NCBI RefSeq assembly: GCF_004569295.1
Contig: NZ_SPQC01000011.1
Coordinates: 1-64,000, forward strand
DNA: 64,000 nt
DNA from: Rothia nasimurium
GTDB taxonomy: Bacteria > Actinomycetota > Actinomycetes > Actinomycetales > Micrococcaceae
Direction of reading: 5' to 3'
A model generated the notes under the pieces. The model had not been told where the DNA came from, did no database searches, and was given only the letters and a program-made list of their open reading frames with translations. This document shows, piece by piece, positions 39,353-39,480 of this stretch. Position 1 is the stretch's first letter. Each line of letters starts with the position of its first letter. The position numbers and the translations under genes are program-made.

Positions 39353-39409
39353 ATGAGTGAGATAACACTGGTACTCCTTATCTGCCGTATCGAAGCGCCC
39401 CGGGTGTAG
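39353..39409 (+). CDS. leuA leader peptide
   Basis: An 18-codon frame reads [18 protein letters not shown]. The middle is a run of branched-chain codons, CTG GTA CTC CTT ATC (Leu-Val-Leu-Leu-Ile), placed just before a stable hairpin. That is the layout of a leucine-sensing attenuator. No Shine-Dalgarno is present, so translation may start on a leaderless transcript. The stop codon TAG is inside the hairpin loop. Confidence 0.75.
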
Positions 39410-39436
39410 CTTCGATACGGGTCAGTGCTACCCGGG
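39385..39436 (+). promoter_or_regulatory. leuA leader RNA: hairpin with pseudoknot
   Basis: CCGTATCGAAG (39385-39395) pairs perfectly with CTTCGATACGG (39410-39420), leaving a 14-nt loop. CCCGGGT in that loop (39399-39405) is complementary to ACCCGGG at 39430-39436, giving a 7-bp pseudoknot. A ribosome stalled on the Leu codons would reach the left arm. Computational surveys of Actinobacteria have predicted leuA leaders with leader peptides and pseudoknots; that is from memory and unchecked. The effect on expression is inferred. Confidence 0.75.
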
Positions 39437-39480
39437 ACGATACCCCTTCCTCACCGATCTCAACATCTAAGGTCATTACG

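Follow-up and report, generated by a model that had tools for sequence, protein, structure and literature searches.

The leader of leuA in the 64,000-nt stretch of Rothia DNA analyzed here (referred to below as the window) is, on the comparative evidence, an evolutionarily conserved RNA switch of the actinobacterial LEU element type. This kind of element is already known, having been predicted in 2005, and the window copy is a further member of it. It is likely that leuA is under ribosome-sensed control by this leader, acting in cis as a leucine attenuator, with either of the two outputs considered below. The comparison of genomes also suggests that the same switch precedes other leucine and branched-chain genes.

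The leuA locus and the distribution of the LEU element

The element lies directly 5' of leuA (39481..41223, + strand) in an actinobacterial host. The product of this gene, a 2-isopropylmalate synthase of 580 aa (NCBIfam NF002991, E 3e-262), also matches TIGR00970 and the Pfam families HMGL-like and LeuA_dimer, and is 99% identical to the LeuA of R. nasimurium. The Shine-Dalgarno (SD) sequence of leuA is separated by 8 nt from the ATG at 39481. The upstream neighbour is a LytR-CpsA-Psr gene (37808-39271), and a very stable GC-rich hairpin without a U-run (GGACGGGCGGCGGCAG...CTGCCGCCCGTC, 39298-39331), located just 5' of the leader -10 site, probably belongs to the end of the LytR-CpsA-Psr transcript. 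A previous sequence-only reading of the window had described a leuA leader with a peptide ORF, a hairpin and a pseudoknot, which is supported both by the re-analysis of the window and by the relatives; the 18-codon frame carrying the run CTG GTA CTC CTT ATC is present as described (Table 1). The elements listed in that reading did not include the possible base stem between the Leu run and the SD or the published precedent of the LEU element (PMC1262725).

Table 1. Features of the leuA leader in the window (positions are those of the window).
Feature	Sequence	Position	Strand	Remarks
Extended -10 (TGN-TANNNT)	TGATACCGT	39338..39346	+	Predicted; ends 6 nt 5' of the leader start codon
Leader ORF		39353..39409	+	ATG 39353, TAG 39407-39409; 18 sense codons; predicted leaderless
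Sensor codon run	CTG GTA CTC CTT ATC	39368..39382	+	Conserved last Leu codon is CTT, 39377-39379
Candidate base stem, strand 1	CCTTA	39376..39380	+	Within the Leu codons; 5 bp with 39468-39472
Hairpin, 5' arm	CCGTATCGAAGC	39385..39396	+	12-bp perfect stem; also codes for part of leader C-R-I-E-A
Hairpin loop	GCCCCGGGTGTA	39397..39408	+	Contains stop codon bases 1-2 and pseudoknot strand 1
Pseudoknot, strand 1	CCCGGGT	39399..39405	+	In the loop; 7 bp with ACCCGGG and a possible G-U
Hairpin, 3' arm	GCTTCGATACGG	39409..39420	+	Pairs with CCGTATCGAAGC
Pseudoknot, strand 2	ACCCGGG	39430..39436	+	25 nt downstream
Candidate base stem, strand 2	TAAGG	39468..39472	+	Includes the leuA SD

LEU elements were predicted upstream of leuA in most Actinobacteria (Seliverstov et al., 2005; PMC1262725), and in the available part of that report they resemble the window in having a leader ORF with a Leu run before leuA, a pseudoknot and a candidate base stem in which the Leu codons pair with the SD, with no terminator. 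Since these features and the range in most Actinobacteria agree, the window copy was assigned to this type; it was likened to the published copies by their described features, the sequences aligned being those of relatives and not the published copies themselves. The letters of the window stem and pseudoknot differ from those of the usual type described there, GCGAGGCC/GGCC, and the codon run of the window, in contrast to the published ones, includes Val and Ile.

The window element aligns with 66 relatives. A covariance model built from this alignment, including the window's own sequence, detected one copy in the window's own genome, where further weak matches (E 0.9-10) were rejected as noise; it identified the element in 30 of the 35 Rothia genomes and gave matches in 281 of the 296 genomes sampled across the class, which belong to many families. 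When the window was searched with Rfam 15, no matches above the gathering threshold were obtained, and a permissive search returned only unrelated chance matches. Two Rothia loci (L015 and L023) are without a recognisable element, and L015 still has a -10-like site along with a short ORF lacking Leu codons, as if the element had decayed. In four loci of one Rothia clade (L014, L016, L017, and L020), the sequence after the leader hairpin reads TTTTT or TTTTTC, which gives this hairpin the look of an acquired terminator; about 135 nt separate it from leuA.

No terminator-like site was detected between 39200 and 39600, and no U-run occurs after any of the window hairpins, which bears out the earlier remark that none follows the stem. 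A classical transcription attenuator with a mutually exclusive terminator and antiterminator is largely refuted by this missing terminator and must be considered very improbable: the leader peptide carries end-product codons and actinobacterial ilvB leaders are of that type (PMC1262725; PMC13236596), but the published leuA leaders are also devoid of a terminator, as far as the accessible parts of the reports describe them (PMC1262725; PMC8079986).

Leader start, sensor codons and RNA pairing in relatives

The leader ORF, the hairpin, the pseudoknot, the -10 spacing, the conservation of CTT and the linkage to leucine genes were demonstrated by comparison between loci, 128 leuA loci having been collected and reduced to 79 distinct elements, from which 67 sequences were aligned. 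In 74 of the 79 non-redundant loci, a TANNNT motif ends 6 nt (59 loci) or 7 nt (15 loci) before the in-frame leader start, and 62 of these 74 also show the TG extension; shuffled upstream sequences yielded the motif at that spacing in a mean of 2.3 loci and a maximum of 7. As regards promoter geometry, an extended -10 at such a spacing places the transcription start site (TSS) at the start codon. Because of this conserved spacing of 6-7 nt, the leader of the window strain is probably leaderless, with a TSS at or near 39353, that is, upstream of 39409, the limit which the sequence-only reading had set for it. A scan for consensus promoters around the leader found none, the pattern used being one that demands a -35 box and is blind to extended -10 promoters.

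The Leu residues preceding the conserved C-R pair of the leuA leaders show a high degree of conservation (78/78 at position -2, 73/78 at -3, and 69/78 at -4), and the last Leu codon, at position -2, is CTT in 76 of the 79 leaders; across the leuA genes, CTT accounts for 5.4% of the Leu codons. The Val of the window run is replaced by Glu or Lys in sister species, and Val and Ile occur together in only 3 of the 78 leuA leaders, so that the Leu/Val/Ile mix is, judging from these relatives, a quirk of the window clade. Of the Leu/Val/Ile leader peptide initially described, the conserved feature is a Leu run ending in CTT, the Val and Ile codons being no conserved part of the leuA sensor.

The stem of the window hairpin is perfect, as previously stated, but consists of 12 bp and not 11 bp. 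The stop codon, which had been placed inside the loop, has its first two bases there, while its final G belongs to the stem, as the 3' base of the pair next to the loop; the stop codon also lies in the loop in the relatives, with few exceptions. The pairing over 7 bp between the loop and a site 25 nt downstream was recovered as described. Taken alone, the fold energy of the window is modestly low (z -1.86 with the upstream sequence and -1.32 from the predicted TSS), and the case beyond chance therefore rests on the relatives.

In the alignment of 67 sequences, 89% of the hairpin cells pair and 7 of the 12 pairs have changed on both sides. Double-changed cells numbered 84, versus 19.9 in shuffles, which ignore relatedness, and 17 at most when the partners were slid by 1-3 columns, a control which accounts for relatedness in part. 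When the strongest stem was sought without constraints, unrelated hairpins located upstream were picked in many of the loci, and a search anchored on CCG...CGG was used instead. In the MAFFT alignment, the R. nasimurium group is out of register with the other relatives at the pseudoknot strands, and the pseudoknot was therefore tested by permutation and not by column counts. Each loop taken with its own downstream site gave 15.0, versus 13.2 (sd 0.30) when the sites were permuted, with none of 5000 permutations reaching the observed value, and nine divergent Rothia gave 16.5 versus 10.8 (0/5000). The fact that the Rothia pairs (CCCGGGT/ACCCGGG, ACAGG/CCTGT, TGCCGCG/CGCGGCA, and CGATCGG/CCGATCG) differ in their letters yet stay complementary indicates that the pairing has been preserved amid sequence change. 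The covariation of both helices, which had been put forward as a test of the leader, was thus found among the relatives, in the form of compensatory changes in the hairpin and co-varying loop and downstream sites. Chance complementarity in an intergenic stretch, with which the modest z-scores of the window alone would agree, is refuted by this covariation and by the -10 site, the codons and the stop codon conserved in the relatives, and its probability is practically negligible.

Copies preceding other genes

A second copy of the element precedes leuC at 11 loci (L166-L171, L173, L175, and L177-L179; LeuC identified by TIGR00170), in genomes of family f4, which, judging from named relatives, is probably Microbacteriaceae. 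These copies have a Leu-run leader and a -10-like site, and their stop codon is in the loop, as in the leuA copies; the support for the pseudoknot is weaker in this set (13.0 versus 12.1 permuted, 45/5000). In several other families, copies occur before leuB (L182, L187, L189, L190, L194, L196, L197, L202-L205, L212, and L214), which is followed by ilvE in several of these loci (LeuB NF002898, IlvE NF009897). The leuB-type copies have a 10-12-bp stem, a stop codon in the loop and pseudoknots of 7-11 bp (own sites 21.2 versus 15.5 permuted, 0/5000). They are located at about 150-670 nt from leuB, and once at 1576 nt, with a small ORF in between in several cases. In L187, L202, L203, and L204 this small ORF (~35-60 aa) is conserved and has an LDRRDNGG-like motif near its end; the one member tested matched no Pfam family. 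Copies were also found before LeuA paralogues and, in L216 and L217, before a small stand-alone protein resembling the allosteric (dimerisation) domain of LeuA, that of L217 matching the window LeuA with an E of 6e-7 and that of L216 more weakly matching the LeuA of genome G356 (E 0.001). The available text of the 2005 report mentions leuA copies and a single copy within a transposase gene, and none at leuC or leuB-ilvE (PMC1262725), and no published report of leuC, leuB-ilvE or LeuA-paralogue copies was found in a literature search that covered mainly freely accessible papers.

The leader codons shift with the target gene. Leu codons versus Val plus Ile codons number 256 versus 19 in the leuA leaders and 16 versus 25 in the leuB leaders (odds ratio 21, the p-value being indicative only, since the loci are related), and Val and Ile are both present in 10 of the 11 leuB leaders versus 3/78 in the case of leuA. 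The ilvE product acts for all three branched-chain amino acids. Since the codon mix before leuB-ilvE matches these three amino acids, and a shift of this kind would not be expected of a site which only binds a protein, the leader codons are favoured as the sensor, read by the leader ribosome. A protein-binding site, the leader peptide not being the sensor, was the interpretation preferred in the accessible text of PMC1262725, where it is proposed, with a phyletic argument, for the leprae protein ML1624, which has a DEAD-box helicase domain. It would also be in line with the conservation of CTTAGCTGCCGC beyond the needs of the peptide. This interpretation is disfavoured, and we hold it to be unlikely, because the leaders preceding leuB-ilvE have Val/Leu/Ile codons in place of Leu codons while their stem and pseudoknot are retained; the leader frame, the fixed -10 distance and the stop codon in the loop are all conserved as well.

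Sensing of leucine and control of leuA

The leucine supply is probably sensed through the translation of the tiny Leu-rich peptide. In the scheme that we infer, in which stalling would be the means of sensing, transcription would begin with the A of the leader ATG or with a neighbouring base, and ribosomes would load onto this leaderless ORF. With ample charged tRNA-Leu, the ribosome would clear the CTN...CTT codons and halt at the stop codon held by the hairpin loop; once it has been released, the hairpin, the pseudoknot and the candidate base stem, which joins the Leu codons to the leuA SD, could form, and the expression of leuA would be low. Under a shortage of Leu-tRNA, the ribosome would wait on the Leu codons (CUC-CUU) and thereby occupy the CUCCUU run, which resembles an anti-SD, together with the first part of the 5' arm; leuA would then be expressed.

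As to the output, masking of the SD in particular is plausible, if somewhat short of probable. A base stem pairing the Leu codons with the SD was proposed in the accessible part of the 2005 report (Seliverstov et al.; PMC1262725); from the present comparisons, it appears possible, with modest support, and argues weakly for SD masking. The duplex energy of the Leu run with its own SD is -9.38, versus -8.14 with permuted SDs (1/5000), and the helix score remains distinctive over all the loci when the permutation is stratified by group (3/5000). Within Rothia (342/5000) and Micrococcaceae (568/5000), the coupling is weak, and synonymous redrawing of the codons gives the same mean energy (-9.34 versus -9.34 kcal/mol, no excess), both of which count against SD masking.

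The same ribosome-sensed leader might instead act by premature transcription termination, either Rho-dependent or resulting from a pseudoknot-assisted pause, which is a variant overlapping with the best explanation and a rather doubtful one. The distance of 150-670 nt separating the leuB-type copies from leuB argues for early termination, which tolerates widely varying distances, and fits poorly with SD pairing; the window mRNA past the pseudoknot (39437-39467) is C-rich and G-poor, as assessed by eye, and the T-runs of the Rothia clade described above point in the same direction. On the other hand, the window contains no intrinsic terminator, the Leu run and the SD are coupled within groups across the loci, and the free stretch of about 45 nt before leuA is short for a Rho loading site. 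For ribosome-sensed control in general, the codon mutations made in S. coelicolor, which according to the accessible text of PMC1262725 had no effect in the case of ilvB and had effects unlike classical attenuation in that of leuA, count against a simple attenuation model.

Comparable leaders are known in other actinobacteria. The S. lividans leuA leader LeuL1, like that of the window, encodes a Leu-rich peptide (MRFGLLLLSCRGEGL) before leuA and has no typical Rho-independent terminator; it is leaderless according to TSS mapping, whereas the window leader is predicted to be so, and the part of the report available describes this Streptomyces leader solely as attenuator-type, without any pseudoknot analysis (PMC8079986). 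The ilvB1 leader of Mycobacterium tuberculosis shares with the window a short upstream ORF, branched-chain codons and ribosome sensing, but relies on an intrinsic terminator together with an antiterminator, and the report describes no pseudoknot (PMC13236596). The poly-cysteine sORF attenuators of the mycobacterial cys operons, as far as they are presented where cited in PMC13236596, resemble the present proposal in that a short leaderless ORF contains the end-product codons and control is by translation attenuation, and differ from it in the amino acid involved, cysteine.

The control of leuA in actinobacteria has been puzzling since the paradoxical codon mutations in Streptomyces. We know of no LEU-type hairpin-pseudoknot in the poly-cysteine attenuators of cys operons. 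The comparative data, namely the inferred leaderless start, the rare CTT codon, the covarying hairpin and the co-varying pseudoknot, raise the 2005 prediction to a well-supported RNA family, one that has no entry in Rfam, and the fact that the leader codons vary with the target gene makes peptide-codon sensing directly testable. The main interest lies in the questions thus narrowed, through the likely leaderless start and the covariation, and in a wider regulon with retuned codons. We lean slightly towards regarding the LEU element as a portable pseudoknot attenuator serving the whole branched-chain pathway in Actinobacteria, at leuA, leuC, leuB-ilvE, LeuA paralogues and proteins resembling the LeuA allosteric domain, with leader codons that may be tuned (Leu only, or Val, Leu and Ile) to the product of the operon. 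If this is true, the element would define a regulon not described before and a class of ribosome-sensed RNA devices that work without a terminator.
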